Source of the DNA: Amphiura filiformis
Lineage: Eukaryota; Echinodermata; Ophiuroidea; Amphilepidida; Amphiuridae
DNA length: 64,000 nucleotides
Reading direction: 5' to 3'
NCBI RefSeq assembly: GCF_039555335.1
Contig: NC_092629.1
Location: 2,427,935 to 2,491,934 of the forward strand
Of the stretch, positions 25,306-63,022 are shown piece by piece; the first letter of the stretch is position 1, and every line of letters starts with the position of its first letter. The notes below the pieces were generated by a model. It saw only the letters and a list, made by a program, of their open reading frames with translations. It did not search any database and was not told the origin of the DNA. The position numbers were made by a program, and so were the translations under genes.

Positions 25306-25312
25306 CCGGGAT

Positions 25313-25538
25313 GTTGAACTACAAGCAGGTTGCACTCATCACCTGTGTATGTCTGCAATCATAGATTGAATACAATACCGGTCTTTTCAAAGATACTAAT
25401 CTTACAGGTACGAATGATCAGCATGATATGGTTTAACAGAGGTACACCGTGAATGTACACGTGCAGCGGGGTATATTCAAAAATTGTTTCTACCTATTGC
25501 TATGGTAGTTAATCCGATTATTACATCACTTCGCCAGA
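25313..25538. mobile_element. TA-type MITE, left-truncated second copy
   Basis: It matches 11880-12105 (CTACAAGCAGGTTRCA, TCTGCAATCATAGATTGAAT, CCTATTGCTATGGTAGTTAA) and ends at CTTCGCCAG, but the left TIR is missing. Confidence 0.92.
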
Positions 25539-25545
25539 ATGGTGA

Positions 25546-26098: not shown

Positions 26099-26239
26099 AA
26101 CTCCATCTTTGTTTCGTTTTGTTGCAGTGATGATCGCTGATAGAACTTAATGATACTTTTTGAATAAGTTCATCAGGACTGATATAATTAAATTAAATAT
26201 CAGATTATGTTGTTCAAGTCCAAAGATTTACTCACGTTT

Positions 26240-26335
26240 TAGACGTGTCATCTTTCGTGCGGAAGATTTCATCAGTAATGCGCCGATACAGCCGCTTCAC
26301 CACCTCTGGTCCTCCTACTCTCATCCCCAGGGTGT
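26240..26335 (-). other. Possible orphan exon
   Basis: The minus strand reads LGMRVGGPEVVKRLYRRITD then EIFRTKDDTSK, followed directly by the consensus donor GTGAGT. I do not recognise the peptide. Its phase does not join to the neighbouring PC4-like segment, so it is unproven. Confidence 0.25.
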
Positions 26336-26727
26336 GTAGTTGTTTGCAGTAGCTGATCGTATACATGACTCAAAGAATAAGTTCCTTCATGATATATTTT
26401 ATTCTGAGAAAATCTTCATGTTATATACAAAATCCGTTCTATTTTTAGACATAACATCATTTCATCCAAATATTCATGACATCATCTTCTCAAAAATAAA
26501 TATGACATCATCAACTGTGCAGCTGGTCTTGTTTCACAATCCTTTGTTTCTGCAAAGATAATAAAAAACAAACAAAAACACAGTTGTAAATAAAGGTGTC
26601 CTAGCGCGTAATCTTATAAAAAAAAAAGTATTCGAGATTTGATTAAAGTCACAAAATATTTATTATTTACGAAGAAAGTGATCAAAAATAATCTGTATAT
26701 AAATGAAGCAAATTTACCTATTCTTAT

Positions 26728-27114
26728 TCATCCATGTCTTCGTATAAAATATAAAAAGTCTTCGTCTTCGTGGAAATAGGGTTTGGGTTTGGGTATGGGT
26801 ATGGCATTTGAACAGCCGCATGAACTGCTGCAATCAGGATCATCTTGATATAAAAGTTCCCAGGGTGGTGGAAGATTTTGATACAATGCTATTACCGATG
26901 GGTCTTGTGTGTTGACTGGTATGGGTGTTGAAATGCTTTCTACATTTATTGTCTCTTGTTGGGCATCTTCCCCAAATAATTCAAGTAGATCATCTCTCTC
27001 ATCTCTCGTCAAAAAGTACAATTCACCATAATCATTTGCGAGCCAATAGATGCCCTCCGTTTCAGAAAACATCGATCCCTCACCATAGTAAATAGAACCG
27101 ATGTCAAAAAAATG
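26728..27114 (-). CDS. Hypothetical acidic ORF, unknown function
   Basis: From ATG 27072 the minus strand encodes 114 residues: GIYWLANDYGELYFLTRDER, LLELFGEDAQQ, LPPPWELLYQDD, a CSSSCGC cluster and a Pro/Lys segment. The frame is open upstream to about 27114 (YYGEGS precedes the Met). Composition is protein-like (strongly acidic, Tyr/Leu-rich start), unlike the flanking AT repeats. It lies 0.6 kb upstream of the PC4-like ORF on the same strand, so the two might derive from one element or gene. I cannot name the family. Confidence 0.35.
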   Translation of the reverse strand, partial: HFFDIGSIYYGEGSMFSETEGIYWLANDYGELYFLTRDERDDLLELFGEDAQQETINVESISTPIPVNTQDPSVIALYQNLPPPWELLYQDDPDCSSSCGCSNAIPIPKPKPYFHEDEDFLYFIRRHG

Positions 27115-27239
27115 CAGTTACAGTTATAGCACCTATACAGAACAACAAAAAATAACAAAAATAAGTTTTGCTTACTTTAATGAGAAAACAATTTAAAGAT
27201 ATAATATGTTCGATTTTTTTAAAATATGATATAGATATA

Positions 27240-27810
27240 CAGGGTGTCCCAGAAAAAATTACCGGGCGAACGTGAGTCGAGAAATAGACATTAAAATCCA
27301 AAACTCTAAGCACCAGCTTATTTTGCATCTTATAAGTCAATTTTACTGTAATCGGTTGACTGATCGCGAAGAAATGAGCGATTACATAATGCATGCGTAA
27401 ATTCACTTCATTCCAAGTTTGAAAGAAAGATCATTCAACACAATGCACACTGGTGGTTGACTGTCAATGGGCTTCATATTTTGTTCTGTGAAATCCTTTT
27501 CGTTCTTTGTAAACAATGTGTTTCTTGCAAAACATTTAATTGGGTATAGTTCAAATTTGAAAACCTTGCATGTAAGATGATGCTCGGTACTTGTAAATAT
27601 ATTTTTTCGTTTATGTTGATATAAATGTTGCAAAAACAATTATTGCATAAAGGATTTCGTCAGCTGGCTTAAAAAATTCTCACACACATTAATGTTTTTG
27701 GAATATTTCCAAGAAATTGTAATGCAAAGTTTTAATCTTTTAGAACTTTAACATTAATGTTGCATGGTATCAAATATAACATGTAAAGCTGTAAGCACTT
27801 GATAAATTTT
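27240..27810. mobile_element. mariner-like element, truncated second copy
   Basis: It starts with TA then CAGGGTGTCCCAGAAAAAAT and follows the 23729-24300 sequence (GGTTGACTGATCGCGAAGAA, GCATGCGT, TTTGGAATATTTCCAAGAAA). The homology ends near 27810 and no right TIR is found. Confidence 0.9.
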
Positions 27811-29096
27811 CGAAATGCACCGATTCAATCAAAATTTGTCTTAAATTACTCCTCTCGGCAAACCAAATAGGAAAATCATTTATTTGAAAAATTGACTGCA
27901 TCAACTCTAAAGGGGACATGACAGTACAAAAATGCACTTAAATTGTAAATTAAGTATATGTTTGAGATTTCGTATGTTAAGGGGAGTAATTTGAAACCAG
28001 TTTCGATGAAATCGGACCATTTTTTAATTTTGACCTCGGTCTTCAATGGTAGTCAATCCTTATTGGTCGTCACATGACTATCATTTGGTCAGACTGTAAA
28101 TCGAAATTTGTAATTTCAGACTGTTTTCACCTACGCGTGCGGAAACTTGCTCGAGAATTCTAGCCACGAATTTGCTCACCGATAGGTTCACACTCGAGAA
28201 GTCTACCCACGAATTTGCTCAACGATAGCTTTACATTCTAGGCTAGAGAGAAAGTTCAGAAGTAGAAAATCTGGTAAACCAGTCCATGCCACATGGGTAA
28301 ACACAGTCCAATCAAGACGGCCGATCGCATCAAAAGTGTTCTATTGCACTTCAAAATCTTAGGCAAATTTTACTCAAAAGATACAGTTGACTTATCGAAA
28401 TAACGTACATCCAAATTTAAACATTAACACAACAAATAACATTCGTTGCAAAAATGTCAAATGAAAAACGATATATAGTCTAGCAATTATCGTACTCCAG
28501 CATCGAATGCGTAACTATCGTGTGCAAATTCGAAGCTAGAGTTCTCGAGTATAAAGCGGATCGAAACCCAATGATAATCTCTCATAGAGATGCTGATTCC
28601 GCGGCAGTCCTAGCGGAGTGGAGTAATTAGTATTGTGTAAGTCATACCAGTATAACCATGATTGTTAAACACCATCTTTTTCATCGTTGCCTTTACATAC
28701 CTTTTATATGTGAAATTAAATAAAGAGTGGAAGCAGTTGCCATGATGAATACGACCAGAAGAAATCTTCGTCGTTTTGACGAATGTCTTGGTAAAATGCC
28801 CATATCCGCGGGGAGTATTTGCCTATGATAGCTTATGATACATGTAGGAACTGAAATCATTTGCTGTCTGATCGATTAGCCTTGAATTGTCATGGACGAA
28901 TAACATACAAAATACAATATGAAAGGTCGAATAACTTAACCATATTTTAAGATAATTCACTGTATACCTCCATACCACAGTGCACATAGAATTCCACGGC
29001 TCAGCGCACATTATTATGCATACAATTTGGGCGCACTTCATGGAAAACTCGGTCGAGTTTTACCCAAATTTAAAAAAATAAATAAAGGTGAGTTAA
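27811..29096. other. Gene-free stretch
   Basis: No recognisable coding or bounded repeat. A short inverted pair, TTAAATTACTCCYCT and AGGGGAGTAATTTGA, lies at 27841 and 27981. Confidence 0.5.
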
Positions 29097-29753
29097 GGGC
29101 TGGGGTATGAACGTTTGGACAGTATTTATTTTGGGACATTAGAGCACATCAGACATATCGAATTGCATTCTGAATACGAAGAATGTCATTCTGATATCAA
29201 ATAATTTTGATTTTTGAAATTCGCAATTTAATACACATTTTATGGCAAATCATTAAAAATTGATATTTTGATATTTAACAGTACTTGAAGTAAACTTTTA
29301 AATCTGATGATTTATACTTAGAGTGTATGTAGGTGGGATGAAAAGCCAACGATCAATTGAAAAATTTGACCTTTCGTATTGAATATATAAAAAAAAAAAA
29401 AAAAACACCAAAACAAATTAGGTCTTTTGGGGAAAAAATCCATATCTTCAATATGAAAGGTCGAAATTTTCAATTGACCGTCGGCTTTTCCTCCCTGCTA
29501 CATACACTTTAAGAATATATCATTAGATTTATATAATTTACTTCGAGGACTATTATATATCAAAAATTTGAAAAATATCAAATTTTTATAATTTGCCATA
29601 AAATTTATATTATATTGTGATTTTAAAAAATGAAAATTATTTGATATCAGAAAGACATGCTTCGTATTCAGAATGCAATTCGATAGGTCTGAGGTGCTCT
29701 CATGTCCCACAAAAAATACTGTCGAAACGCAATAAACGCTCATTTTAGATCCC
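29097..29753. mobile_element. TTAA-flanked foldback MITE, 657 bp
   Basis: TTAA sits at 29093-29096 and 29754-29757, with ends GGGCTGGGGTATGAACG and a diverged inverse ending GATCCC. The arms pair throughout (TTCTGAATACGAAGAATG / CATGCTTCGTATTCAGAA; TTGACCTTTCRTATTGAA near the centre), with an A-run at 29389-29405 at the centre. Non-coding; piggyBac/TTAA-type by target site. Confidence 0.9.
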
Positions 29754-30460
29754 TTAATGAAAAAGAAATTTAGCAACGCGACCAGGTTTTATTTACCCGA
29801 AGTCTACATAATAGTACACTTCAAATATATTGAAATCCGCTATTGTATTCTGTTCATCGCTCAAATACACATTAATAATTTTCTGTACCGCCGGTATTTC
29901 GCAATTATTAACATTAAAAATGCTTCATTTATCTTATAATTAACAAATTGCAATTATGAAAAATAAAAACTTTTAAAGTGAACATATTAAGTTCTACTTC
30001 AATTGTTAAAATTTGGAAAATATCGACTGACCGGCAGATAGCAGCCTCTTACTAAATTTAATTATGTTCTAAATTATTGCCATCGCGCCCAAAAATCTCA
30101 TACACGATTTTATTGATTCATTTTTGGGCTTACTACCGAAAGTTAGAAGTCGTCAATGGCAACATCAATCAACATGATCATACTGAGCAGTGGTAAGAAA
30201 TACAAGAGTCTTGGACAACGAAATAATATATCTCGAGCCAAGGGAAGAAAAGATTTCATAATCTTGCTTAAAACATCTACCGAACCCAGGGCCAGGAGGC
30301 ACAATAACTTGGGTTAGGGGATTTAATATCACTAAAGAAGATATGCCCACAAGAGATTGTTATGATGAACAACCTGTCCTTTAAGATTAATAAAACAGGC
30401 AATGTTACCTTGTTTTTATGTTTGTTTGGACGCTATGACGTCAAAATGACGTCATTGTCA
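29754..30460. other. Gene-free stretch
   Basis: I see no gene or repeat boundary. Two TGACGTCA-like sites (30437-30453) lie just before the palindrome at 30461. Confidence 0.5.
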
Positions 30461-30502
30461 AGTGTCCCATATTACCTGCATGTGCAGGTAATATGGGACA
30501 CT
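30461..30502. repeat. Perfect 42-bp palindrome; motif recurs at 30666 and 31047
   Basis: AGTGTCCCATATTACCTGCA, a TG spacer, and the exact inverse. The half-site GTGTCCCATATTACCTGC recurs singly at 30666-30683 and 31047-31064 in the same orientation, so four half-sites lie in 600 bp. Intervening sequence is AT-rich and non-coding. It may be the hinge of a tandem or foldback element, or a protein-binding site. Confidence 0.9.
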
Positions 30503-31064
30503 GTGTTATCTCTATGGTGAAAATCAAAAAGTTCAGAAAATCACTCTTTTGTTCTAAAAACATTTTTGTTACATGATTTTGAATGTTAAATGCAAATTTC
30601 TACAAGAAAATTCAATTTTCTAAATAGTTTTGCTTTTCGCATTGACAATGCACACAATTTCCTATGTGTCCCATATTACCTGCACCCATTCAGTTGAAAA
30701 TCAGAGAAAATAATCATTTATAAAAGGAAAGTGCCACTTGTCAGTGGAATTTTACCTGCTGATAAGCTTAACCCATCACCTAAAGATAATAAAAATGACA
30801 AATGCCCCTCAGTACCAGAGTTTTTGGATACACAATCATAAAATGTGACGTCATTGATTTTATATCAGGTCAAAAAACGACATAATTTTTGGACAATTTC
30901 ACTCTTTTTGGCATTGATTTCCAAGAGTTTGATACACAGACTCCAAAACTGCATTTCTAGAAGCACAATTGATGTCTCTAAACACTTAACAAATCAACTT
31001 AAAGTGTTTACCTTCTCTAAGCTACTTTTTGTTAAAATGAAAACAGGTGTCCCATATTACCTGC

Positions 31065-33599
31065 TGTCTAAATCTAAATCTAACGTGTTGTTTTTACACC
31101 CAATTGCTTTCCAACAAACCTTCAGGCACTACTGAAGGACTCGTTGTTAATAATGAATTGACGCAAATTAAAATTTAAATTATATTTTTCTCTTCAGGGA
31201 CTTGACCAATCCAAAACATTCAAGAAAAGCTGTCTTGGACATTTTTGACACCATAGAACTTACATTATGGAAAGTAATTAATTTAAAGCATACCAGGGTG
31301 TGGATGAGGAGGGGAAGTGCCGATTTCAGGCGCGTATCCAGGAATTCGTAGACCGGGGGCGCAATTGAAGCTTGTTTTGTGAAATAGAATATGGCCGCTG
31401 TTTTGTTAGCCGAATCTTTTTGATGAAAGTCAATCTTTGACAAGATGTAACTACGGAACGTGCTATGAGAAAAAGGTTTTCAGTTTTGGCTTTCTTTACT
31501 CAAGGGCTTTAATTTGATTTATAAAAGGATGCAGTTTGATGGCAAATTTGAATTCACCTTTCATACCTATATCGTATATGCTGAGCCTGGGTCGCTCGGC
31601 CTATCTCGAACAAAATCGCCATGCATAGCTTTTGAAGAACGAGTGGATTCGCCGTACTATCACTGCAATTTTTGACACGAAGATATAGGGATGATGACGC
31701 TGTGTGAGGTGTCAAAATGCGCAGAACTAAATTCTGCTTCAAACGTAGAATAATGACCATTATTTAAGGGGGGGGGGGTAATAACTTATTTTGAGATGTT
31801 TACTTGTTTAACCTGATAGGGCAGCTATTCATTATTGTTTATCTTTAACTTATTCTACTATGTGAAAGTAATATTTCCTTCTCTATAACATAACCCTATA
31901 TTGTTGAGAGTAAACATAAAAAACAAATATTCATTGGGTACATAAACATAATAAAATGCCATGAATAGCGCCGCTAGGAGTGAAGTAGACAACCTTTTCT
32001 ACAGGTTGATGACGTAATATCCAAAATGTTTTTTATATCTGGCATTTAACGTTTACCATATTGTATATTGTATGCATTATAATAGTGTTTAACTCTTTTT
32101 GGGGCTTGATGCTTTCATCCATTGATATTCATTAATATTTATTCATTCATTCATTCATTCATTCATTCATTCATTTTGTTAAGTCAGTCAATCAGTTATT
32201 ATATATTTTCATACTTCCTCCATAACCGTACAATACTACCCTTTATTTTTGGATAAACAATAACACAGTCATTATACCTTAATCATGTCATTATTTTCAA
32301 CTGCAGAAACCTTTTAGTTTCTCTTCTATTTTAAGATTTACATCTCCCTTTCTCTTTTCCAAACTAATCAACCATCATTTCATTGTCAGTATCTAGTAAT
32401 AAATCTGAGCTGTGAGAGTACGTGCCTCATCTATCTCTGCTAATAAATTTATATAATTAATGTGTATAACCAATAGACAAACTTTGCCCTGAAAAGAAAA
32501 ATCAAATGTGAATAAATCATTATTGTCTAACATTGCAAGCTTAAGTAAAGCGGATCGAAATCTTGCCACAAATGTATACTTTTCCTAACTTAGGTATGGT
32601 TTCCAAGATTGTGTGGTTCCCAGTAGTTTCTCTCCAAATGGATAATATAGGTACACGGTCTGTAGCACAGAATATTGCGCGAGTTATGTTACGCATGCAC
32701 GCGGGGTGTTAGGATTTACCAGGTAATACGGCAAATATTCATGAGGTATTGGTTGTGCATCATCCATATAAAAATGGATATGTATTGTTGTCAATTTTCT
32801 TTACAAGTTCACACTTAAATAAACAGCTTTTAAACAATTAAATCTAATCAAGCATATGAGTAAGAAACGGCTTTTACCAATACATTGTATTCCATGTAGG
32901 TAGTCATAGCAGCCATACAATCTGAAAGGATCAGACGCATATGTATTTTTAACAATTAGTTGGATATACCCATATTTTGGTATTTGGAAAACACATTTCT
33001 TGCCACAATATTCCAAAACATCAGACTGGTAGAACCAAGAGCACGGCGTGTGCATTTGTAGCAGTAAGTAATGTCATCATCCACATTTATTTTGTTTTTC
33101 ATTTGTTTCATTTTGTATAAAATTGATTATTTGTGTATAATCCTTCCACTTTTTTTCTGTCACACAAACTATCATTCTGATATATCTGCTAAGATTTATT
33201 TTGACATTTTTTTTTGGTAGAAGTAACTGTAATATACCTGCTTTCTGAATTCTGAACTTGAAACTGATAAGAAAAGTCCAAATATGAAATGCTTTTAATA
33301 AACCGACGAATAACTTAAGGGGAAAGTGTATAAAACTATACATATTTGGAAAGGAAATGAGTCGCGAAATCCTATGGTAACGTCAGATTTAAACAGAATG
33401 TTTAGTTTTTGAAAAATCACAAAAATACTCTTTTTTAGCCCACATTTTTGTGACAACATACAAAAAATCGAAATATTGAAGAAGAAAAAAAAAGCCATTT
33501 TGTCACTCTGTTTAACAAGTGGTTGCATATAATGGTGTATCTTTTTGTTTAAAAATATGTTTTTCCAAAATGTTTAATATTGGCTATTATAAAAAAAAA
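31065..33599. other. Gene-free stretch with microsatellite
   Basis: An (ATTC)n microsatellite lies at 32141-32175 and a G11 run near 31768-31778. Open frames on the minus strand have no recognisable domain. Nothing else is supported. Confidence 0.5.
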
Positions 33600-33792
33600 A
33601 TCAATCAGTGGTCAGCAATCAATGACAGGCAATTAGTGATCATAATCAGTAATCTGTGATCAGTGCCGAGCAATCAGTGATCCCTGATCAGCCATCACTG
33701 AATCAGTGAATAGTAACGAGCAATTAGTGATCATCAGTCAGTAATCAGTGATCAGCTATCAGTGATTAGTCGTGATCAGTGACAAGCAATCA
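33600..33792. repeat. Degenerate ATCAGTG array
   Basis: About twenty variants of ATCAGTGATCAG / CAATCAGTGA follow each other without fixed period. An old short-unit array that has drifted. Confidence 0.8.
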
Positions 33793-34621
33793 CGGTTGTT
33801 TGATGTGATCATTTATTAATTTTTCTAACAACAACATTATATAATGTTCAATTCTAGACCTGGACAATACCAACAGCTATCACGCTAATACACATATGTG
33901 ACTGGACACTACGATTGAGCCGTAAACTCGGTAAATTGTATTCTGAGTTACAGTGTAAAATGTGCGTGAAGGTCGTATTCATAGGTATCTCAATTCGATG
34001 CGACAAGTATCTCATCAAACACTGTTTAAACTAATCAATATCCTATTGCTGAAGAGGATAACAAGTTTCTACCTATTTCTATAGAATCCATAAATATAGT
34101 TCTTGTCTTTGTTTGCTTTGTTCGAGTGGTGGATAACAAAGCATAGAGGTTATCCACTTCACTCATGTGTGACTTCTAACAAAATGCGCTGGTTCCCGTA
34201 GTATTCCTCATTCAAACCAATTCAATGCACGACCTCGGAGTTACCTGCATGACTTTGGCGGGCTATTTTGAAACAGTCATGGTTGCACGAGTATGTACTT
34301 CTTAAACAAGGTCCTAAACAAGGTATAGCAGTCGTCGATAGGATATGCAGCTTATAGAACATGGATAACCTCTATTGTATTTTGTCTAGGTATGTATAAC
34401 CAACAATTAACAATGAGAGGACATTCCTGAACCTCGTTGACTTTGGGATGATTTGAAATGACTGCCAATTATGACTGTTTGATATTTATTATCAGAAATG
34501 TGGAAAAGAGACGCATGTAGAACCGAAAAAAAGGTACATTTTTTGTTGAAGGAACAAAGTTCAACATACTATAACCCCGCTTCTGGATATCGTTTGAAGT
34601 CAAATGATATACCATTATAAA
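33793..34621. other. Gene-free stretch
   Basis: No gene or bounded repeat recognised. Confidence 0.45.
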
Positions 34622-35309
34622 CCCAGCAAACACAAAACGTTTTCGACATCATTCGCAAAAGGTTATAAAAGGTTGTCAGAAAACGTTTAAATGTCGGGTT
34701 ATATAAAGGGTATATTAAGAGTATAAAACGTTTTCATAACCTTAAAAAACATTTTTGATAATCTACTGCTCAGCAAACAAAAATGTTCTACAGAAAACGT
34801 ATAAATGTCGGGTTATATAAAGGGTATAAAAACGTTTTAATAACATTCCAAAAACATTCTTGAAAACTTGATACAAAACATTCTAAACAGAATGTTATTG
34901 GGGTTGAACAAATATTTTGCGAAAAATGTTTGCCCAAAATATTTTCAATAACGTTTTAAAAACGTTTTCATGACCTTTATATAACCCGACATTTAAATGT
35001 TATTAAAAGAATTAAAAAAAAAGATTTTAAGAACATTTCTGTGTTTCCTTGATACAAATATTTTCACATAATGTTATTTAAATGTTGAAAAAAAAAAAAA
35101 AAAAAATGTTTGCACAAATAGTTTACAATAACATTTTTTAAACATTTAAAAATATTGTTGTAGTGTGTTTTCATACAAAACGTTTTAAAACGTTATCATG
35201 ACCTTTATATAACCCGACATTTTAATGTTATTAAAACGTTTTTACCTAAACCAAAAACCAAAACATAACTTATTTAAAACGTTTTTAAAACGTTTTTGTG
35301 TTTGCTGGG
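34622..35309 (-). mobile_element. CCCAGCAAACAC inverted-repeat element, copy A
   Basis: The ends CCCAGCAAACACAAAACG and CGTTTTTGTGTTTGCTGGG are inverted. The interior is built of repeated AACGTTTT and TGTCGGGTTATATAAAGG modules in both orientations. It lies in the opposite orientation to copies B (49570-50250) and C (62060-62748). No coding capacity. Confidence 0.93.
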
Positions 35310-35855
35310 AAGCTTATGATATATATTTCCTAAACACGAAATAAAACAAAATTGACCGGGCCGACTTTACAGCTGATTCGTGGTGTCCACTCACATATGT
35401 TTTAAAAAGCTTTTTCTAAGATAGATTGTCGTTTCTATATCAAATTATTCATCTTTTTCTGTTTTTTAGTGGTGATTTTTATTCTATAAATTGTACATTT
35501 AAGTGCAAATTGAAGGCGCTATTTACTTATGTTTCAAATGTAAATTAGCCAAATATTTTGTCTAATTCCTGGTATTTTTCATGATAAAAAGTTTCTTGAA
35601 AATGTCCTTGCCATTTGTTAGTCTTTTTTTCTTATACCATTCTACAAGTGTCTACCCCTTGTAAAGATGCAAACAAGATTTAAGATAAATAGCGCCATCA
35701 TTGTTCAAGTTTTCTTTACAATGACACATTTTTACATTACATCAAACAACCGTGATAAGTTAATCAGTTACTCAGTAATTAGTATTTTACACCTGCCGAT
35801 GTCTGTAAATCCTAATCCATTTGTCTGTCTGTCTGTCTGTTCGCTCTCATTCCAG
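35310..35855. other. Upstream region of the discoidin-LU gene
   Basis: A pyrimidine-rich tract with (TGTC)n at 35822-35841 ends in TCATTCCAG (35855), a good 3' splice site. The first coding exon is therefore probably preceded by a 5' UTR intron. I see no TATA box that I would trust. Confidence 0.45.
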
Positions 35856-35886
35856 GTTTGGTTAACATGATACGTATGTGATAGCT

Positions 35887-35965
35887 ATGGCATCTTACAT
35901 AGTAGTAGTACTATCTGCAGTGACGGTTATGCTGTTTAGCACTCCTTTGCTTCAATATGTTCAAG
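35887..35965 (+). CDS. Exon 1: signal peptide
   Basis: ATG 35887 (context AGCTATGG, G at +4) encodes MASYIVVVLSAVTVMLFSTP then LLQYVQ and a split Ala codon. The donor is G|GTCCGT, a weak match. The next exon completes the codon (G+CC). The uORF ATG at 35868 is stopped after four codons. Signal peptide cleavage is likely near VQA-AAC. Confidence 0.7.
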
Positions 35966-38900
35966 GTCCGTGTATATGACCCCGGGATATGACCGGACAA
36001 TCGTGTTTCGTAAAAACGGTATCAAAAACTATTTAATCGACTGATTAAACTACCGTTTTACGGTATCTTCAAAGTGTTCTGTCCTATCCTGACTTGTACT
36101 GCTTTGTCTGTCCATACCCCTTTTATTTGGTATAATATATTGTTAACCGATCTTGTCAAATTATCTGTTGGTGGTGGAATCATGCGCTAATTATTTTATC
36201 CAGCTTTGTGTCAGAATATGTTATTTATTATATACGAGGGTCATTCAAAAGGTTCTACCTCTATCATCACATCTCTGTTATCTCACGTGTCAGAATATTG
36301 AAATTATCAATGTTTATACTCCTAAATCTAGGCTACTGATAGATATTGAGTAAATATTTGAACAAAAATAAATCAATTTAATCATTTTCAGAAATAAAAC
36401 TGCAATGATTTCTACATAGATGTGGGCAACTTTTTAAATCAAAAGAAGCCTTTCTTCTCAGACCGTTTTCGACGTACCAAATATGTGTTCGCTCCAATCA
36501 ATATATCGTAATAAACAAAAATCACATTTGCATCAAATAACTTTTATTTTGTAGCCACATTTTAAGAGTATAAGCATAGGCAATTTCAATATCATGCCAA
36601 TACCCTCGTGTTTTATTAGTGTACTTTTGAGTATTATTATCTGATTTAATGATTCCATCATTTTTTTTTTCATTCTTATTTCGGCCACAAGATATCATCA
36701 TTGTAGACACTAATAATTGTAGTGTAAGTTAACTTGCCATCTTGTTGAGATTGGGTGCCACTTTGCGGCCTCCACATCTCTTCACTCTTCATGTTCTTAT
36801 GGTTTATCTTAGTAATATCATAATGTATTCTTTATCTTGTATCTTTCCATTTTCATTATAACATTAATGTGAATTGGGATGAAAACAAATTAACTTGACT
36901 TTGAACTTGAAGCAAACACAGAGCAAAATGGAAACAAGCGATTTAAACATTCGTATTTCTTGCTCCAATTTGCAACCATAACTTGCTCCAATTTGCAACC
37001 ATAACTTTGTATCTTTTAGCCGCTGCTTGCCAAGAACCTCTTGGTTTAGAGGATGGTCAGATACTTGACAGTCAAATAACGGCTTCTACCTCGTGGGACG
37101 ACAACCACGGACCTAGCAACGCTCGTCTGAATCGCCCAGCACAGTACCCTACTCGTGGATCGTGGGCTGCCGAATACAATGACGACAACCAATGGATCCA
37201 GGTAGATCTAGGCTTCCCAACAGAGGTTACTGGCGTGTTGATTCAAGGAAGGGCTTATAACCTAGATGAGCGCCTTGTTGGAGGTAGCGATTGCTGTCCA
37301 CAGTGGGTGACAAAATTCAAAGTCCAGTACAGTAATAACAGCAGACATTGGCTTTTTGTGAAGTCAGCAATCAAAGGAGCTATAATGGTGAGTTTTTAAT
37401 TTTTGCTTCTTTTCATTTGAAGAACTGCGCGCCTTACCATCTAATGAAATATTAACCGCTATGATTTATGACACTGTTTTTTTTAAATATAATTTGAGAT
37501 GCATGTATAACAAAGCCAAGAATTGAGACAGGCATTCATCTAACACAGAAAAGTACGCACCAAGCACGTAAAGTCAGGGGCGTTCCGACCATTAGGCCAG
37601 GTAAGGCGGTCGCCTAGGGCGGCAAATGCAGAGGGAAGAAAAAAAAACAAGAAAAAACGGGAATGGAGAAAGAATAGGGAAGAAAAAATGAGGGCGGATA
37701 AAAAGAAAAAACGGGACGGAAAAAAAGGGGGCGAAAAGAGAAACAGAAAAAGGACGGAAAAGGAAAAGGGGGACATAGGAAAAAGAAAAGAAACGGGGCA
37801 GAGAAAAGGAAAGAAGACACGGGCGGAGAAAACAAAAGAGGAAACGGGCGGAGAAAAGTACGATGAAACTGGGCGGTGAAAAAACAAAAGAAAAAAAAAA
37901 AAACAGAAGACAAAATAGAAGAGAAACAGAAAACAGGACGAGAAAAGATAGATCTGTACTCAAGTGTTTGATCAACAATGACATATGGCCGTGTCAATTT
38001 TGTTTTGGTATCGTGATAATTTCCGTATCGTGAATTGTAATTCTATTGTTTAATGAATAGAATTACAATTTATGAAAACGGTCGTGGGGGAGGACAAGGG
38101 GATACGTCCCTCCACATTTTGGGATAGGGGGGGGGATATCAAATGCCCCCACCCCACCACGTTTCGGCAAATACTTCCCTTGTCTAAGTAGCCTTATTGT
38201 AAAAATACAGGCAATATTCGCTATTATACCTTGATTTTTGGCTAAAATGGTATGAAATTGACATTTTTTTCGCGCATTTCATCGGTGCCCGCAATGAGCC
38301 CAATGTGTATCAACTTTCATGGGCAACTTTCACTTCAAATAGAATGAAACTGAAAATTTCAATAATGCTCATTGGGTAATTTAATTTTGTTTTCTCTCCC
38401 CCTCCTCCCTCGACAAAATGTCCAGGCTAGCAACTAGAAATGAGCTGTAAACTGATTCAATTGGGCCTTCATATTGAATATATGTTAATTTTTTCCAACT
38501 GACATTTTACACAATAATAGTGTAAAAAGTGTCCACCACTAATGCCTTCATTTTACAAAACTTGTGTCCCCCCACTATCGAATTCGGATTGACGCCCTTG
38601 GTGGGCAGTATACAAATAGTTCAAAACTGATGAGTTTTCAAGGGGGAAACCCTGTGCTTTGGTGGGGCGGCAGGCGTGTCTGGCAACTCTGGCGCCTACT
38701 GGCAGCACTTTTTGCAGAGCTCTGCCAACTTGTGCCCATTTTTCCATCTTAAGGGCACTTGTTATTGCAATTTTTGCATCAGTCATTTTGGAACATACAC
38801 TGACTGGTTTGTGCTATTTTTCCAGTTTGTGACATTTTTTTAGTGTTTTTATATATGCTTATTTTTCAATTTCTCTTTAAATATGTATATAGATTATTTC

Positions 38901-41900
38901 TTGATTCTGTATTGAATTTAGTGTGCTTTTCTTATTATATAATATATGTTTTTATAATTGGACCCCAGTGGAAATAAGCCCCCTTTTGGAGGCTTTCTTG
39001 GGTAATCCAAGATTTTAATTCAACATTGTTTGATACATTGTATTTGTAATTTAAAGTTATATTGTATATTCTGTTTTTGCTGTAATTTTATGTTGAATTT
39101 TAATCGAATAAAATCAATCAATCAATCAATCAGGGAGAGCCCTGCATAAAGTAAACATTAATTTCTACTAGACTGCTGCCCTCATTCGTCAACCATCAGT
39201 ATAGACTAATAAACCTATGTGGAAACAAGGTGACGGACTTTGGGCAGCACACCACTAAACCCTTCCGCATTTGGTGTAACCCTTGATAGTCCCTATAAAC
39301 ATAATAGGTCGGTAGTGCAAACAAGTGGGTGTCCCTTGGGAGCAAGATGAGTAGCCATGATTGTTTATTATAATTAAATTAAAAGATATGCAATTGATCA
39401 ATGTTCAGAATATCACAAAATGGTGCATCTTGATCTGGTAAAACATTTTGGCTCCTGAAACTAATCCGCGTGCGGATATGATAAGGAGGCATTCGTGCAA
39501 GCTGAAAATAAGGGTGGTACTGTTCAGGTCCCCGTAGCTTAAAAGTTAGTCTCAGCTTGTTTCAAAAAACCAATTTTAAATTAAATTTTAATCTTTATTT
39601 AAGACATTGGTGCTACCAAAATATGAAAAATGGCTTTACATGGGGTAGGAAAACAAACTTACTTTCATGTATATTTACACGTATTTCAATGGGAGTTTTA
39701 GTGGTGTGCGCCCTTCGAAGACTCATTTTTTTAGGCTATGGGCATGATTGATACCTGATTTTAAGTGCCAAAAAGTTGAGATTTTTGCCTGAAATTGATC
39801 TATTTGCAACAAAAAAATGTGTGTTTTCTGTTACGCAATTTCATTCTTAAACGCACACGAAATTTTCTTCAAAACACAAGTTCCCGTCGAATTGACAATT
39901 TAAGACCGTGCTATAGAAATTGAGCTATTTTGGCCTTAGCATCATAGGAGTGGTCACTTTTGATTATCCAGGCGCAGCAAAAGTGAAACATCTTTGAAAC
40001 TATTTTGATGCAAAATGTAATTATAAGAACAAAACTCATATATTAACGTTTTTTCATATAAAGTGTAACATGTCATGTCAATCGGAGACACTTTTGGGCA
40101 GGATAGTAAATGGAGAAATAGCCAAAAATCTGCCCGGGAGTGATTTTTCACAATTTGGGTTTGTTGTGGATTGGTGATGTTCTTAATGTTAAAAATATTG
40201 TCTGATAGTTTCAGACCAGAATATAACTGGCATCTTGTATCTTTTAAGACATTTTTCAAGGTAATTCCTACTCTCGACATTGTTAATAATATTTTTAAAG
40301 GCCGATATCTCAATTTCCAATTTTATAATACCATAACTTACGAATTCAAAATCTTCGCTTAGGAATGTCCGATTTCATTGGGGCAAACGGCGTTGTGGAG
40401 CAAAATACATCTATATTTAAGATAGGTAAAAACCTCAAAATTGATAACCTGCCCAAAAGTGTCTCCTTTTGACATGACACGTCACAAGTGTTTGAAAACA
40501 TGCTTCCATGACTATTATTATAACCCGACATTTAAATGATAGTAGTGTACGTATGATACTTGCAATCTCTCGTGGAAAAATTGAGATAGCTTGAAATTCC
40601 CCCGGACAAGAAACTTACTACAAATTGTCTCGTTGTAACCCGTACAAAACTCGGGCACCTGATCCTGGCTGTGAAGGTCAATTGTGGAGTTGTTGTTAAA
40701 TGGTTTATGGAATGATGTGGACAGCGATAACCTGTACTTTGTGTTGAGGCTTGTGGATCAACGTCTAGGCGTTGTGCCTATGCGTAGACCCTCCCTCTGG
40801 TCCATGGAGAACGACTGGTAATGTATATTATATAACATAATATTATATGACCCTCCCAATCTGCAGGCAAGTTGCCTTCTACTTCCCAGCATTTTGTGAG
40901 AATTCACTTTTAGCGATCCTGTGTCAGACGAGTTTTCTATATATCACGTCCGTGGTCTCACTGTCTTGCCGTTTGTGTAAGCGGCTATTTAGCCTGACCA
41001 ATCAATGTAGATCTCAGCAAGCAAGGCAATTTGAAGTGGTTTTCATTGATAGTCTATTGATCATAACCATTGCATGTTATGTGCCTACCATATTTGAATT
41101 GACAATGGGGCGGGGCTATCATAATTGACGCCAGAGTCATGTTACGTAGCTTGATAATTATTTGGAAGGGACTTTTCTATTCAAAATGTAACAGTCTCGG
41201 ATTAGGAGAGCTATTATATAAAAAAAATAAACAACTTGGTCTGCAGATTAATTAAGTTTTCGTCGACACACAGTGCTCCAGAAGCACTATAACTTTGTTG
41301 CTGGCAGTTAGGGCTTAGTGGTGTGTGGGTATTAAACTATGGAGTGAAGGGGAAGCTGGTTTTAGCTCTAAGTATTTACCCAGAGATGGAAACGAGACTG
41401 TGGGACAGTCTAGCATATGCGCAGCACACTAGAAATCATTAAGTTTTTGTTTGTTTGCTTTGGGTTTTTGTTTTTTTATTCATCAAATGTCCTTTTTGAT
41501 TTGGACGATTAACGGCGTAATGTTGGTTGTATTGCATATAATTGTAGCGCGTCAGGAGTCATTGTGAGTTATTCATAACCTCCGCGTATCACGCCATATT
41601 TGCGTCCCAATCAAATTGGTCGTTAGATGATATACGTACATCGGCGTGGAGGTTATTGATATCCATCAATGACCTCCGCGTATGCTTACGCGGTACAATG
41701 ACTTCCGCGTGTGCGCATATGTTGCGCCGGAACACTTCACACGCACACAACTATAATATTTGCACATGGCGTGATTGCGTAGTGGTGTAATTGTTAAGTC
41801 CGTTTTAGCCTGTTCGATTTTTTGAAGGGCGAAATATAAGTTTTGATAAAAATTGTTTATTTCAACAAATTTTGAGATTTGGTTGAGTGATGAGTTGAAA

Positions 41901-44446
41901 ATGACGGGTATGAATTCGGTTAATAATTTTGCATCAGCAATATGTCGGGCATTGTGAAAAATCTAAACATTTTGCTTTGGACCTCGGAATATTCATCGGT
42001 TCCAAAGGCAAAATGTTTAGATTTTTCACAATGCCCTCCACACATGACATAACCGATGCGCAGTTAGTAACCTCTAAGTAGTTACTTTTTGTGCCAAGGG
42101 TAGATAATAGCATTTTAGTATTTAGTTTTGCTGCTGTCCACGCTAGTAGACCTATTTAGTATAGGATGATAGATGTGGACAAGCCATGCATTTTCTTTTA
42201 TTGATATTAAAATCCTATTTCTGTCACAGATATTTGATGGAAACACCGATCAAACTACGGTTGTCACCAATAATTTCCCTACAACAGTTATAGCGTCTTA
42301 TATACGAATACTACCTACTGAGTGGAACAAACATATCAGTATGCGTTTTGAAGTCGTTGGTTGTGCTACAGGTAAAGTAATCATGTTGTTAAGTATGTGG
42401 TTATAGCTATATAAATAAATAATAATAATAACAGCATTCCCAGAACCTGATCAAAGCACTTTACACATTGTTACCTTAAGGCCTTCATTTAGAACTAGAA
42501 TTTATTAATATCATTACCTTAATAGCCAATGTGCAAAAACGAACTTCCCATAGATTTATGGGAAGTGAGAGGCAAACTATAGACAGATTAGGAGGCCCCA
42601 TGTAAAGCAAGCTGCTTAATTGATCATTGATTAGAATCAATGGAAAATCCTGATTTTGATGTCATATTCAAAAGAAAGAACTAAGCTTTGAAACAAGATC
42701 AATATGAAGGGTGTGGTCATTATTGTTTTATTTTTTCAAGTCAAATGTCACGCCGCCAATAGAAGACACATGGCCATAGGCAAGTTTGACTTGAATGTTT
42801 AAAAATTAACAGGTATTAAAATTAACTGGATATACATGTATCTTGTTTTATCATGAACCATTAAACAGTTGGGCTTACATCAACCACAAACAGTGATACC
42901 AAATCGTTAACTAAGCCTACCACACCCACTGATACCAGCTTGTTATGTTATCAATGCATGCAACAAAATGACATGGATGACTGTAGCATCAATGGATTCC
43001 GGGAAGGAGCCGATCTAGTACAGCAGGTCCAATGTTTTGGAATATGCTATGTAAGCTGATTTATAATATTCTACTGTATATTGTATTGTATTGTATTGTA
43101 TTGTATTGTATTGTATTGTATTGTATTGTATTGGGAGCACGTGTGGCCGAGTGGATAAGGCGCCCGACTCATAATCCATAGGTTGCGAGTTCGAGTCCCG
43201 CTCGTGCCAACGTATTGTGTCCTTGGGCAAGGCACTTTATCCCAATTGCCTACTGGGGGATGGGGTTGGGTTGGGTTAGATGTTTGTATAGTTGTTTGTT
43301 TCAATGTTGCAATATTGGCGCTGATTAAGCTGCTGCCTGCAAATTGCATTGTGTCTGTTTAGTTGTGTTTAATGTACAATTCTAGCAATTTGACCTGCGG
43401 GTCACCATTAGAGTTTGAAATAAAACCTTCCTTTGTATTGTATTGTATTGTATTGTATTGTATTGTATTGTATTGTATTGTATTGTATTGTATTGTATTG
43501 TATTATATTGTATTGTATTTTGTATTGTATTGTATACGAAAGAGAATGCCAATCTGCTATTGTCTGTTCCAGCTCCAGTGACACCTTGTCGATTTCCCTG
43601 GACCTTTAGGTGCACTGTAATATTAGTAGTTACTTTGAAAACCCAATATAACATGGCTGTAGTTCTAATGCCCTCTAGTATAGTGATATAAAATTGGATT
43701 GATTGAGCCCATATTGGTCGAGCTATGAGTTTTAAAATATTGGACGATACGTAGTCGAGTCCAATATTTGAAAACTCATAGCGAGACCAATAAATATTGG
43801 GCGTAAAGCATCAGATTTTATCATTATTATGTTTTAGATCCAATATTTTCACACACTCGGATTCATCAAAACATAATAATGAATATACTAGGACATCCTA
43901 CTCAAGACATATGCATAAGTGTCTTTGGAGTTGGAACAGATAAACCGATGCAGTGTCTTTGACTACGACTTTATACAACACATACACTTTGGTCTTTACC
44001 AGATTCTGCAAATCGCAAACCAATTTTCTAGAGATTGTGAGAATGTCACCCAGCCTGACAATCACCTGTGCATAGATAAAAGTCCCGGATGTCATGACTA
44101 CTATAATACTACCTGGATTGGCCAGATCTGCTGCTGTGATGATGGTAATCTTTGCAACGGTCAAGATTTGGACATTCCAGAGCCATCTGTGACATCACTT
44201 GGAACACAAATTTTAACTGACAAGACTTCAAAAACCAGCCAAGAAATAGCTACAGGCTCAACAATATCAGAATCCAGAGATCAAACTACATCTGCATCCG
44301 AAGAGCATTCTGCATATATGTCTGAACACCAATACGCATCTGAGGAGCATACTGAAGAGCAAGTGACAACTGCTGGAGGACATACCAATTCATTTTTCAG
44401 TGAATTTGCCTACTTGATTATCACTGTGGCATTTTTCATACTGTAA
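35887..44446 (+). CDS. Discoidin (F5/8 C) - Ly6/uPAR surface protein, five exons
   Basis: Exons 35887-35965, 37020-37387, 42230-42371, 42869-43050 and 44003-44446 join with phases 1, 0, 1, 0 and give exactly 405 codons including the stop. Layout: signal peptide (residues 1 to about 26, hydrophobic VVVLSAVTVML); F5/8 type C domain (about 29-195; CQEPLGLEDGQI start, WIQVDLG, YIRILP, closing GC); Thr/Ser linker; LU domain (about 217-306; LCYQC, then CCCDDGNLCN end); acidic Ser/Thr stalk; C-terminal FAYLIITVAFFIL with no charged tail, as in GPI signals. Discoidin domains bind glycans or lipids; LU domains bind proteins. Likely an outer-surface adhesion or recognition protein. I know no named gene with this order. 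Exon joins are inferred from splice sites and phase, not from transcripts. Confidence 0.82.
37020..37387 (+). CDS. Exon 2: N-terminal two thirds of the discoidin domain
   Basis: Acceptor TATCTTTTAG, donor ATG|GTGAGT. It encodes ACQEPLGLEDGQILDSQITA, WIQVDLGFPTEVTGVLIQGR, WVTKFKVQYSNN and HWLFVKSAIKGAIM, the standard F5/8 type C core. An unusual SDCCP Cys pair sits in the loop before WVTKF. A 23-bp tandem duplication (TGCTCCAATTTGCAACCATA...) lies just upstream of the acceptor. Confidence 0.9.
37630..37935. repeat. Polypurine tract
   Basis: About 300 bases of almost pure A/G on the plus strand (GAAAAGG, GGGCGGAGAAAA). It is preceded by CAGGGGCGTTCCGACC and GGTCGCCTAGGGCGGC (37576-37623), which looks like a hAT-type repeat end. 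Long open frames across it are composition artefacts. Lies in intron 2 of the discoidin-LU gene. Confidence 0.85.
38960..39133 (+). mobile_element. LINE 3' end with (TCAA)n tail
   Basis: GACCCCAGTGGAAATAAGCC, GGCTTTCTTGGGTAATCC and a TCAATCAATCAA tail (39112-39132) form a typical LINE 3' UTR end. No RT coding is left. Lies in intron 2 of the discoidin-LU gene. Confidence 0.7.
40062..40483. mobile_element. TIR element, about 420 bp
   Basis: GTGTAACATGTCATGTCAAT with CGGAGACACTTTTGGGCAGG at the left pairs with CCTGCCCAAAAGTGTCTCC and TTTTGACATGACACGTCAC at the right. Non-coding interior. Lies in intron 2 of the discoidin-LU gene. Confidence 0.85.
40484..41946. other. Intron 2 sequence without recognised genes
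   Basis: Holds a short relic of the CCCAGCAAACAC element (ATAACCCGACATTTAAATG at 40520) and repeated CCTCCGCGTATSAC-type segments (41580-41720). No gene is seen. Confidence 0.5.
41947..42036. ncRNA. Pre-miRNA-like hairpin (90 nt), function unproven
   Basis: GGGCATTGTGAAAAATCTAA and ACATTTTGC at the left pair with the exact inverse at the right, giving 29 uninterrupted pairs, then a bulge and TTTGGACC/GGTTCCAAA around a 14-base loop. Length and stem suit a pre-miRNA, but the near-perfect arms also suit a small foldback transposon. It lies 194 bp upstream of exon 3 of the discoidin-LU gene. Confidence 0.4.
42230..42371 (+). CDS. Exon 3: C-terminal third of the discoidin domain
   Basis: Acceptor TTCTGTCACAG, donor ACAG|GTAAAG. 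It encodes IFDGNTDQTTVVTNNF, YIRILPTEW and MRFEVVGC, which completes the discoidin domain with the closing Cys that pairs with the first one. Phase 0 in, phase 1 out. Confidence 0.88.
42869..43050 (+). CDS. Exon 4: Thr/Ser linker and first half of the LU domain
   Basis: Acceptor CATTAAACAG, donor TAT|GTAAGC. It encodes VGLTSTTNSDTKSLTKPTTP, then LLCYQCMQQNDMDDCS and VQCFGICY, i.e. the first Cys pairs of a Ly6/uPAR domain. The phase (1 in, 0 out) matches both neighbours, which supports the exon although it is short. Confidence 0.78.
43075..43131. repeat. (TATTG)n microsatellite, left array
   Basis: Pentanucleotide TGTAT repeats run for about 57 bp directly before the SINE head. Confidence 0.97.
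43132..43432 (+). mobile_element. tRNA-derived SINE (tRNA-Met-like head)
   Basis: The head (43132-43210) reads GAGCACGTGTGGCCGAGTGG (A box TGGCCGAGTGG), an anticodon loop CTCATAA, and the B box GAGTTCGAGTCCCGC, ending CTCGTGCCA. Anticodon stem and acceptor stem are poorly paired, so it is not a working tRNA. A conserved-looking SINE body follows, with GTGTCCTTGGGCAAGGCACT, then a body of about 180 bp and a (GTATT)n tail. It lies in intron 4 of the discoidin-LU gene. Confidence 0.85.
43433..43533. repeat. (TATTG)n microsatellite, right array / SINE tail
   Basis: About 100 bp of GTATT repeats follow the SINE directly. The same unit lies before the SINE, so tail expansion and target duplication cannot be separated by eye. 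Confidence 0.97.
43706..43803. repeat. Intronic hairpin
   Basis: CCCATATTGGTCGAGCTATG and GAGTTTTAAAATATTGGAC pair with their near-inverse (to ATATTGGGC) around the loop GATACGTAGTCGA. Arms are about 40 bases with a few mismatches. It lies inside intron 4 of the discoidin-LU gene. Confidence 0.85.
44003..44446 (+). CDS. Exon 5: second half of LU domain, stalk and C-terminal hydrophobic tail
   Basis: Acceptor GGTCTTTACCAG, stop TAA at 44444-44446. It encodes SRDCENVTQPDNHLC, SPGCHDYYNTTWIGQICCC, DDGNLCNG, the typical LU ending. A Ser/Thr/Glu-rich stalk follows with EEHSAYMSEHQYASEEHTEE, then SFFSEFAYLIITVAFFIL. Several N-x-T/S sites (NVT, NTT) suggest glycosylation. The end is consistent with GPI anchoring, less so with a plain TM helix because no cytoplasmic residues follow. 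Confidence 0.85.
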   Translation: MLQIANQFSRDCENVTQPDNHLCIDKSPGCHDYYNTTWIGQICCCDDGNLCNGQDLDIPEPSVTSLGTQILTDKTSKTSQEIATGSTISESRDQTTSASEEHSAYMSEHQYASEEHTEEQVTTAGGHTNSFFSEFAYLIITVAFFIL

Positions 44447-44739
44447 ACATTTCTCACCACAAATGACTGAGTGCGGAATATGTGTGGGCTCTAGGATAAT
44501 AACATGCCTTGAGTTTGCAAAATCCCGTTAAAATCTTTGCAAACTGTTGTATAATTTGAATCCTTTAACTTTTCACTTCATGATTGATACAAACTTCTCA
44601 GACCAGCAAAAATAGAAAATTGGAATTTACTACCAGCGCCGGTGTCGCGAATGCGTGTCATCTCGTCGGTCGTGCTATGGTACAGTCCTTTGATGTGTGT
44701 ATGACCGTACCGCACGCCATGTACGTACTGTGTTATAAA

Positions 44740-45240
44740 CATCGCGCAGGACAGTAACAGTATGTCTACACATGAAATGTGGTTACATAGTGTATATGTG
44801 GTTTTTATTTTTATTTTTGGTCACTTCCGGTATAAAACGAAATACCTTAAATTTGTATTAGCTAAGAAAAACATAGGACAGTAACAGTAACAGTATGTTC
44901 ACACATGAATTGTGGTTACCTAGTGTATATGTGGTATTTTTTATTTTGGGTCAAATGTCATTAAGGGGTCACTTCCAGTATAAAACGAAATACCTTTAAT
45001 ATGCTTCTTCTCCCACAAATTACGTAGGACAGCGAAGCCACTTGCAATACCCAGTGTCTATAAGGTGAACACAGATTTGGGGTCAAAGCTCATCAAGGGG
45101 TCACTTCCGGTATAAAACAAAATACCTTTAAAATGCTTCTTCTCCCACAAATTACGTAGGATAGTGACGCCACTTGTACATATGCATTGTTATTACCCAG
45201 TGTCTATGGTCTTCACAGATTCGGGGTCAGTTGTCACTGC
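44740..45240. repeat. Diverged minisatellite, about 4 units of ~130 bp
   Basis: GGGGTCACTTCCGGTATAAAA, CRAAATACCTTTAA, CTTCTTCTCCCACAAATTAC and GTAGGACAGYGA recur in order near 44750, 44880, 45030 and 45160. A related TCGGAAGTGAACCCTTAATG segment lies inverted at 51982. Non-coding, downstream of the discoidin-LU gene. Confidence 0.8.
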
Positions 45241-46128
45241 TGGCTGTGCATGCTCGTGGTCGCAGACGACCACAATCATATTTAGTTTCCTTTGTTTTTT
45301 CTGTTATTTCATTTGTTTTATAATTTACGAAGTCAGAAGTGTCAAATCTGTCTTCTTTAGGGCTAGGGCCAAACATTTATCCTTAAACTTAATAAGAGTG
45401 CGGATTTGAAAGATAATGGATGGGCTGGCCAATATTTTTTCAGGTCAGTAAGTATAGGTACTGAGCAAATTAGTAATGGTACATGTATATAGTAACTCAT
45501 TGTTCGAAATTTCTTTGGGCCAAGTGGTTCAGATCGGGTCACATATATCACTAGTGTCGGAATGGATTATTGGAGCTAGTCGTATATCTGTCTTGGGATG
45601 TAAAAAAAGAAAAAGTGAAAAACACAACTACAACAAAATTCTTCAATCCCAATTATATTTATTTTCTTACAAAATTAAAAAGACAAAGTGTTGTTTATCA
45701 AGAACACTGAAAACGATCATCCTAGAGCTTTTCTAATTTGCGTCTAAGCCGGAGGGAGTGGGGACTGGTCATTTACAAGGTTATCTTTTTTTTACTAGAA
45801 GCCTAAATATCAATTTATGTAATGTTTTGATGCAATAGGAATCACAAAATGCTCAGGTATGTAAGCTCTCGCGGGCATAAATAACCGTTTGGTCATGAAA
45901 ATATATAAATGAACCGAACCCCTAATTGACTCTTTCAGAGGCAACCTGTCAATGATTACTGATAAACAATCAGTTCTTTGTATAGGATATTTTTTTCCCA
46001 TTTTCACCAGGTTTTTACATATCGTACCCTGTTACCAAGTTATAGATTGACCTTTATCTTAAAATAACCTCACTCATTTCCCCTTTTTTATCAAATCCTT
46101 TAGCTAACATATATACAAACTTACATAC
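45241..46128. other. Gene-free stretch
   Basis: No gene, RNA or bounded element recognised. Confidence 0.5.
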
Positions 46129-47569
46129 AAGGTGTCCCAGAATGATTTATATCGGGAAAGTTGTATTTATTTAGGTATGCAGGGCATTACTATTGGTAGT
46201 ATTGTTTAAAATTCTAAAATTTACATATATTTAGCTTTCTTAGGAATTTTAGATTTTAGAAATTGGTCGTATTTATTTATTTATTACACTTTATCACTGG
46301 TATATACAATAATTATAATATAACATCAAAATATACGAGCGTATTGCACATGAATATTCAAAAGTACATACAAAAAAAAAGGAAGTATAGATAAAATTTT
46401 GCACCAGTGAAAGGCAAGGACTAACAGGTGCAAAGCACCTCTAGGACAGTCCCACCAAGGATCAAAACAATGAGGACACCCCCACCCCCCTCCCAAAAAA
46501 TTTGGGGGAAAAAAAAAACCCTACACAAGCCTACAACCAGAACACTGGCAACATGTAACCCAAGAGCATGTGTTGTAAGGATCAAAACTCTCCTCTGAGA
46601 GCTGGCTCTTAAAAGAGGACATGTTGACAGTGGATCTAATTGTGAGAGGAAGTTGATTCCACAGGGGAACGATACGGTTGAAAAACGATGCCCTGTGAGA
46701 TTCGGTTTTGCATCGTTTGGGAATCAACAATAGGGGGTCAGCAGATGATCTGGTGGTGGGACGGTCCTTGAGGGTGGAGTTAAAAACAACAAAATGGTTA
46801 AGATTAACGTTATAAAGTTCCATTTTGCATCTTTCTTCTACTAAATAGTCGATATCTGTCGATTAGTTATGATGTTACGAAGAAATCTTTGCATGGAATA
46901 AAGGATTTGTTACGCTTGAGTGATTTCAAACTATTCTTTCTTTGGCGGCAGTTTTGAAGACAATTATTGCAGTTTGTGAGTTTCATCATTTGAAATGCCG
47001 GCAGAGATGGATTTTTCATAAAGTATAGAGAAGGTTCGTCCTTAGTGTCATAACATGTATTTATGTCCACAGTTACGTAACGGAGAAGATTAAAATTTAC
47101 TGTGGATGATCTTGAGGATATTCTCTGTAATATTAGCATTTTTGGGTACAAATTGTGGTAAAAATCTAATAAAAAGTACGTTTTTCAACCTAAATATCTG
47201 AAGTCATGTTGAAATGTTTCACTTTATAATCCCATATCAAGAATTATTCAGCGTTGTAAGCTCTACATCTGTGGCAAATTTGGTGTATTTCCTGTAAAAG
47301 AATGTAGGAATTCTCCAATATAGTGCGGCTGGACGATGGTTATAAAGGATCCATGGGTTATGAAGCATTTCCACTATGCAGTTTTCGTCCATTTTCAGTA
47401 ATAGCAATGTCACGCCAAAACGAATCAAGCTATTTACATGAAAGTCACAGAATAAGTAGGAGACATAATGTGTCATTGTATTGCATTTATTAAAATTAGA
47501 TGTACGCTGTTGACTATATATTTTTGATATTTTATTAAAACACGGTATAAATGATTCTGGGACACCCTG
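46129..47569. mobile_element. mariner-like element (1.44 kb) with a LINE fragment inside
   Basis: The left end CAAGGTGTCCCAGAATGATT and its inverse (AATGATTCTGGGACACCCTG) are flanked by TA. The end sequence is close to the 23729-24748 element. The left part has been filled by a minus-strand LINE 3' end (46266-46870). No recognisable transposase remains. Confidence 0.85.
46266..46870 (-). pseudogene. LINE 3' fragment, minus strand
   Basis: The minus strand encodes RPTTRSSADPLLLIPKRC, ESHRASFFNRIVPLWNQLPL and VNMSSFKSQL, the C-terminal pattern (SFF.R....WN.LP....R....FK..L) of LINE ORF2 proteins, then a 3' UTR ending in an (AAAT)n tail at 46269-46281. Only the last ~80 codons are left. Confidence 0.8.
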
Positions 47570-51060: not shown

Positions 51061-51369
51061 GCGCCGCAATATCTTTTTGTTTGACGTCATCTACACCTGT
51101 GATGTAATCGGAGGTGTCTCAACATCCCTAGCAACGACTTTCTACTACCTTGGCTTGCGTGGCACAGTGTTGCACAGATTAGTCTTATAAACTATAGGTG
51201 GCTGGGTCAATTCTCAATGAAATATAGTGTCTGACATAGATACAAGTCGGGATACATAGACAAAAGAAATTTAAGTATTTATTTTAATTATAATAATCAA
51301 TAGCTGCCATATGAGGATAGTTTTCTACTTTAACATCCAAGAACATGATATTTCATGGATGCAACATAC
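51061..51369. other. Intergenic or 3' intron of the Calx-beta gene
   Basis: No exon completing the C-terminus of the Calx-beta/EGF protein was recognised here or further down to 44447. Confidence 0.45.

Positions 51370-63022
<11,653 letters not shown>

Follow-up and report, generated by a model that had tools for sequence, protein, structure and literature searches.

A gene lying within a 64,000-nucleotide stretch of the genome of the ophiuroid Amphiura filiformis (contig NC_092629.1, positions 2,427,935 to 2,491,934; hereafter the window) is predicted to encode a surface protein in which a discoidin (F5/8C) domain is followed by a divergent Ly6/uPAR (LU) domain. The best explanation, to which we assign a probability of about 60%, is a single, exon-shuffled gene whose product carries a signal peptide, the F5/8C domain, a linker, the divergent LU domain, a stalk and a glycosylphosphatidylinositol (GPI) signal, and which would act in adhesion or recognition. 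An earlier note on this DNA had described five phase-matched exons giving an unbroken protein of this kind and had presented the pairing of the two domains as undescribed. The observation itself proved right, and the LU assignment is probably right as well, although standard models miss it.

The gene model was rebuilt from the sequence, and the coordinates, junctions, length, domain order and exon structure given in the earlier note were all recovered. The five exons (Table 1) join into 404 codons followed by TAA, with no internal stop, and all four introns are of the GT-AG type with phases 1-0-1-0; the five-exon model stands. The start ATG at 35887 is preceded by an in-frame stop with no in-frame ATG between the two, and the score of the acceptor just 5' of it (opening an exon from 35856) is reached by only 0.09% of AGs, which points to an additional, non-coding exon lying farther 5'. 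Splice sites were scored with matrices and ranked against 3601 GTs and 3228 AGs, whereby the donors of exons 1 to 4 fell in the top 3.7, 0.2, 0.9 and 6.3%, and the acceptors of exons 2 to 5 in the top 10.6, 4.7, 43.9 and 2.3%, respectively. Exon 2 has a GC content of 0.489, as compared with 0.323 and 0.397 in its flanks. In addition, a codon-usage cross-check, in which each half of the gene was scored after training on the other, placed each half best in its own frame out of six. Skipping of exon 4 was considered and rejected, since phase 1 would then be followed by phase 0 and the frame lost. Searches by tblastn found no further F5/8C or LU copy in the window (the gene's own exons, and otherwise E 2.6 or worse), so there is no tandem array in the window; no Pfam domain was found at E 0.001 in the three plus-strand frames of 21001-36000. 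Thus, exon 1 is probably where the protein begins, and no larger upstream gene is apparent in that interval.

The identity of the F5/8C domain is certain. Pfam family PF00754 matches across the join of exons 2 and 3 over positions 1-127 of its 127 (E 7.1e-30 for the domain alone), with a score of 104.2 bits against a gathering cut-off of 28.2, and it is only by way of exon 3 that the match gets to the final profile position. Cysteines are present at both ends of the domain (Cys30 and Cys194). In the Protein Data Bank (PDB), 67 distinct sequences match this part at E 0.001 or better; the best is neuropilin-1 (whole-sequence E 1e-43), followed, among the best 60 of the 67, by neuropilin-2 and coagulation factors V and VIII, and the single-domain matches include lactadherin and retinoschisin among the matches listed. 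Alignment with the two neuropilin-1 domains shows 8-10 additional residues in the candidate, located at or next to the adjacent Cys118-Cys119 pair in exon 2.

The LU domain is the more demanding part of the assignment. Profiles were made from human LU domains, the largest comprising 13 sequences, and this largest profile is regarded as sound because it recovered known LU proteins when run against the PDB as a control: of 71 matches, the best 60 include PSCA, SLURP1, uPAR, Lynx1, BMPR2, ACVR2A/B, CD59, LYPD1 and BMPR1A, and LYPD6 and GPIHBP1, absent from the profile, were recovered too. Against this profile the candidate scores 11.0 bits, a value reached by none of 3000 shuffles, by none of 3000 shuffles that preserved the cysteines, and by one of 3000 permutations of the segments between cysteines. 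Profile-profile comparison with hhalign aligned 82 of 84 columns (probability 66.7%, E 5.3e-5). The most telling support comes from a ranking, by this profile, of the window's 1164 stop-to-stop open reading frames (ORFs) of 30 residues or more, in which the exon 5 ORF came first (9.6 bits) and the exon 4 ORF second (7.4 bits; the next scored 6.3), each containing only part of the domain.

The start and end motifs of the cysteine-rich part count in part towards the same assignment. LU domains are characterised by an N-terminal L-x-C-x-x-C and a C-terminal CC-x4-CN motif, according to the available part of PMC4839075. In the candidate, the opening LLCYQC fits the former, and the ending CCCDDGNLCN reads CCC-x5-CN, one residue longer than the latter; CC-x(3,5)-CN occurs twice in the six frames of the window, one of the two occurrences being this one. 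The domain has 12 cysteines (spacings 2-8-16-3-12-10-6-12-0-0-5), among which the ten canonical positions can be assigned by eye. A regular expression for the spacings fits six of seven known LU domains and only 24 of 200000 shuffles, but it is given little weight because its ranges were fixed after the candidate had been seen. The extra cysteines of the third finger resemble those of type II activin receptors, as judged from the spacings of ACVR2A; nevertheless, the domain is not filed with these receptors because a type-II-only profile scores poorly, and a ligand trap resembling a type II receptor was discarded on the same ground. Overall, the cysteine-rich part is very likely a divergent LU domain.

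Junction 3-4 is the weak link of the model, since it alone makes the gene a fusion. In its favour are a phase that matches between exons 3 and 4 (expected in one case out of three by chance), a good exon 3 donor (4.08 bits), a short intron of 497 bp, an open frame, and an exon 4 start that resembles a linker, the stretch 197-222 being 58% Ser/Thr/Pro, as expected between domains. Both halves are likely to reside on one transcript. Other features of the junction count against a fusion and would suit two products instead, namely a secreted discoidin protein ending in intron 3 and a GPI-anchored LU-only protein with its own signal exon; these could come from two distinct genes, or could be alternative transcripts made alongside the fusion. 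The exon 4 acceptor is average, with 43.9% of the AGs scoring as high, and two other acceptors open to the LU frame lie at 42894 and 42939 (phase 2). Translation continued from exon 3 into intron 3 would terminate no later than 42406, and shortly past exon 3, at 42414, lies an AATAAA that would permit a transcript to end there. Intron 3 also contains a signal-peptide-like ORF beginning at 42704; ORFs with an equally hydrophobic start, by a threshold taken from this ORF itself, number six in both strands of the window, or roughly 0.02 in every 497 bp of a single strand. An LU-only product may start at this ORF as an alternative, or the ORF may be a relic of such a start. The four GTs past its codon 12, however, have donor scores of -3.85 to -9.64, so a transcript of the LU part by itself would have to use a poor donor, and AATAAA is to be expected by chance in AT-rich DNA and means little. 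With the exon 3 donor and the linker also speaking for the fusion, we consider two products unlikely, if still the foremost of the alternatives.

Further results weigh against the single-gene reading in its other parts, and some would be better accommodated if the cysteine-rich part that is joined to the discoidin head were a small disulphide-rich module of a different kind. Beyond exon 5, no AATAAA occurs in 44447-46500 (the nearest ATTAAA is at 45674). When the joined protein was compared with Pfam, the F5/8C domain was found, but the LU region matched no family at E 1, nor at E 10 with two trims, and a phmmer search of the PDB at E 1 returned no LU structure for it (a phage baseplate match at E 0.88 was taken as chance). 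All 13 held-out true LU domains outscore the candidate (13.3-48.5 bits). A seven-sequence LU profile gave a weak 5.7 bits, reached by 2, 1 and 15 of 1000 in the three kinds of shuffle, and hhalign with that profile gave 5.1% over 18 columns. Sub-profiles were weak as well, the Ly6-only, receptors-only and type-II-only scores being reached by 11, 75 and 49 of 3000 shuffles. The count of 12 cysteines and the five-residue spacing of the final motif are likewise unfavourable. AlphaFold2 models made without an alignment contain no three-finger fold, the LU domain being mostly helix, yet with a mean pLDDT (predicted local distance difference test) of 36.6 for the whole protein and 48.2 for the LU domain they are too low in confidence to interpret. 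Set against the 13-sequence profile score and its shuffles, the near-complete hhalign alignment, the first and second ranks of the exon ORFs and the Ly6-type exon layout, a different module appears improbable. It is even less probable that the same fusion is released and works as a soluble bridge, its hydrophobic end being no GPI signal or the protein being mainly shed. Some Ly6 proteins are indeed secreted or cleaved from their anchor, as the available part of PMC4839075 reports, and the hydrophobic run is short, with the acidic E391 before it; on the other side, nothing follows the run, AGG stands before it, and the Ly6 layout places the GPI part on this exon. Finally, the gene could be an artefact of the model or the assembly, with halves from unrelated genes or one half a decayed copy. 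The fused gene is predicted from a single genome assembly. Repeats and a tRNA-like element lie within its introns, and a search for whole-protein homologues gave two unconfirmed pattern matches in genome contigs and none in viral contigs, both of which are sets ill-suited to an animal gene. An artefact is nonetheless very improbable in view of 404 open codons, four phase-matched GT-AG junctions, two complete domains, a window free of N, and codon use in each half that predicts the right frame of the other.

In hydropathy and layout, the ends of the protein would fit a GPI-anchored product. The N-terminus is hydrophobic (best nine-residue mean hydropathy 2.82), and elsewhere hydropathy climbs solely at the extreme C-terminus, in a run of 13 residues (392-404) that ends the protein and agrees with the hydrophobic end of the earlier note. 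An AGG at 381-383 stands some ten residues ahead of this run. With AGG before the run and nothing past it, the tail is most naturally read as a GPI signal, and GPI anchoring is plausible. The stretch 317-384 is 37% Ser/Thr/Pro, and N-glycosylation sequons are found at 132, 271 and 292. The predicted order follows the signal peptide with F5/8C (Cys30-Cys194), the Ser/Thr-rich linker, LU (Cys223-Asn309), the Ser/Thr-rich stalk and the GPI signal. The most likely role would be that of a GPI-tethered adhesion or recognition protein, whose outer discoidin head may recognise a glycan, a lipid or a protein of the matrix or of an opposing surface, and whose membrane-proximal LU domain may act as a disulphide-braced spacer, as a binder of a transmembrane partner in cis, or as both. 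Such a partner is proposed because the protein is without a cytoplasmic part; as a precedent, the available part of PMC11595613 links the starfish LU protein Lystar5 with an integrin alpha-8-like protein. The roles suggested by the earlier note, namely in immune recognition, adhesion or at gamete surfaces, are putative.

The gene structure also offers an account of how the two modules came together. According to the available parts of the respective sources, the typical Ly6/uPAR gene has three exons, with the signal peptide on the first, the mature protein on the last two and the GPI part on the third (PMC4839075), and starfish Lystar5 is a three-exon gene (PMC9410279). Exons 1, 4 and 5 of the candidate match this layout, with the two F5/8C exons intervening, and exons 2-3 form a discoidin cassette with phase-1 introns on both sides. 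As the simplest account, exon shuffling probably brought the discoidin module into intron 1 of a Ly6 gene. A bolder proposal, which we regard as rather doubtful, is that the locus represents an undescribed family, within the lineage of this animal, of two-headed GPI-anchored recognition proteins, with discoidin on the outside and LU on the inside, that arose by insertion of a phase 1-1 discoidin cassette into intron 1 of a three-exon Ly6 gene, and that the ORF at 42704 is the surviving Ly6 signal exon, either a relic or an alternative start, in which case the locus might yield an ordinary Ly6 protein in addition to the fusion.

Among known systems, neuropilins, lactadherin, factors V/VIII and retinoschisin resemble the candidate in having F5/8C, which they combine with additional F5/8C copies or with different parts; none of them is known to pair it with LU. 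Ly6/uPAR proteins such as CD59, LYPD1 and the starfish Lystars share with it the L-x-C-x-x-C start, ten assignable cysteine positions, the CC...CN end, the exon layout and the GPI-like tail. Unlike them, the candidate carries a complete F5/8C domain behind its signal peptide, and its LU domain has two additional cysteines and a final motif longer by one residue and goes unrecognised by Pfam. In multidomain LU proteins, namely activin-receptor-like and G protein-coupled receptor (GPCR)-like ones (starfish LyAr2), LU is, as in the candidate, one module of a larger surface protein; there it is joined to a kinase or to a GPCR-like part (available parts of PMC11595613 and PMC9410279), whereas here it is joined to an extracellular discoidin domain with no cytoplasmic part. 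The 48 LU proteins reported for Asterias rubens comprise two GPCR-like, two activin-receptor-like and three with two LU domains, the rest having one (PMC11595613); the word 'discoidin' is absent from the main text of that survey. The available part of an Asterias proteomic paper mentions Ly6 proteins and not discoidin (PMC13409769). No description of the F5/8C-LU pairing was found among the papers listed by literature searches, as judged by titles and abstract openings, in agreement with the earlier note; automatic annotations of such a protein may well exist.

The novelty lies in a new combination of two familiar modules. Provided that the transcript is real, the pairing would extend the short list of multidomain LU proteins, which covers receptor kinases, GPCR-like and multi-LU proteins, would supply an example, readable from intron phases, of a Ly6 gene altered by exon shuffling, and would be a candidate surface marker. 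The fusion alone opens no long-standing question, because discoidin and LU modules are both widely shuffled in animals.

Table 1. Features of the fusion gene and of the rest of the window (positions counted from the first letter of the window)
Feature	Position	Strand	Remark
Exon 1	35887..35965	+	Start codon and signal peptide, residues 1-26 plus one base
Exon 2	37020..37387	+	First part of F5/8C domain, residues 27-149
Exon 3	42230..42371	+	End of F5/8C domain, residues 150-196
Exon 4	42869..43050	+	Ser/Thr-rich linker and LU cysteines 1-5, residues 197-257
Exon 5	44003..44446	+	Last seven LU cysteines, stalk, predicted GPI signal, stop TAA
Signal-peptide-like ORF	42704..42802	+	Within intron 3; begins with ATG, 32 residues and stop; hydrophobic start
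tRNA-like match	43137-43208	+	Intron 4; Rfam RF00005, 33 bits; none by ARAGORN; between long TATTG repeats
Neighbouring gene	51328-61746	-	Downstream of fusion gene
Calx-beta segments of the neighbour	61369-61746, 58773-59093	-	Two segments
Weak EGF-like match of the neighbour	near 54015-54098	-	
ORF of the neighbour with membrane-spanning-like stretch	51328-51696	-	
Non-LTR (long terminal repeat) retrotransposon-like stretch	9386-10273	-	Reverse transcriptase match PF00078
Non-LTR retrotransposon-like stretch	14619-15641	+	Reverse transcriptase match PF00078

The surroundings of the gene include a minus-strand neighbour and two retrotransposon-like stretches, and the tRNA-like match in intron 4 is perhaps the head of a tRNA-derived short interspersed nuclear element.

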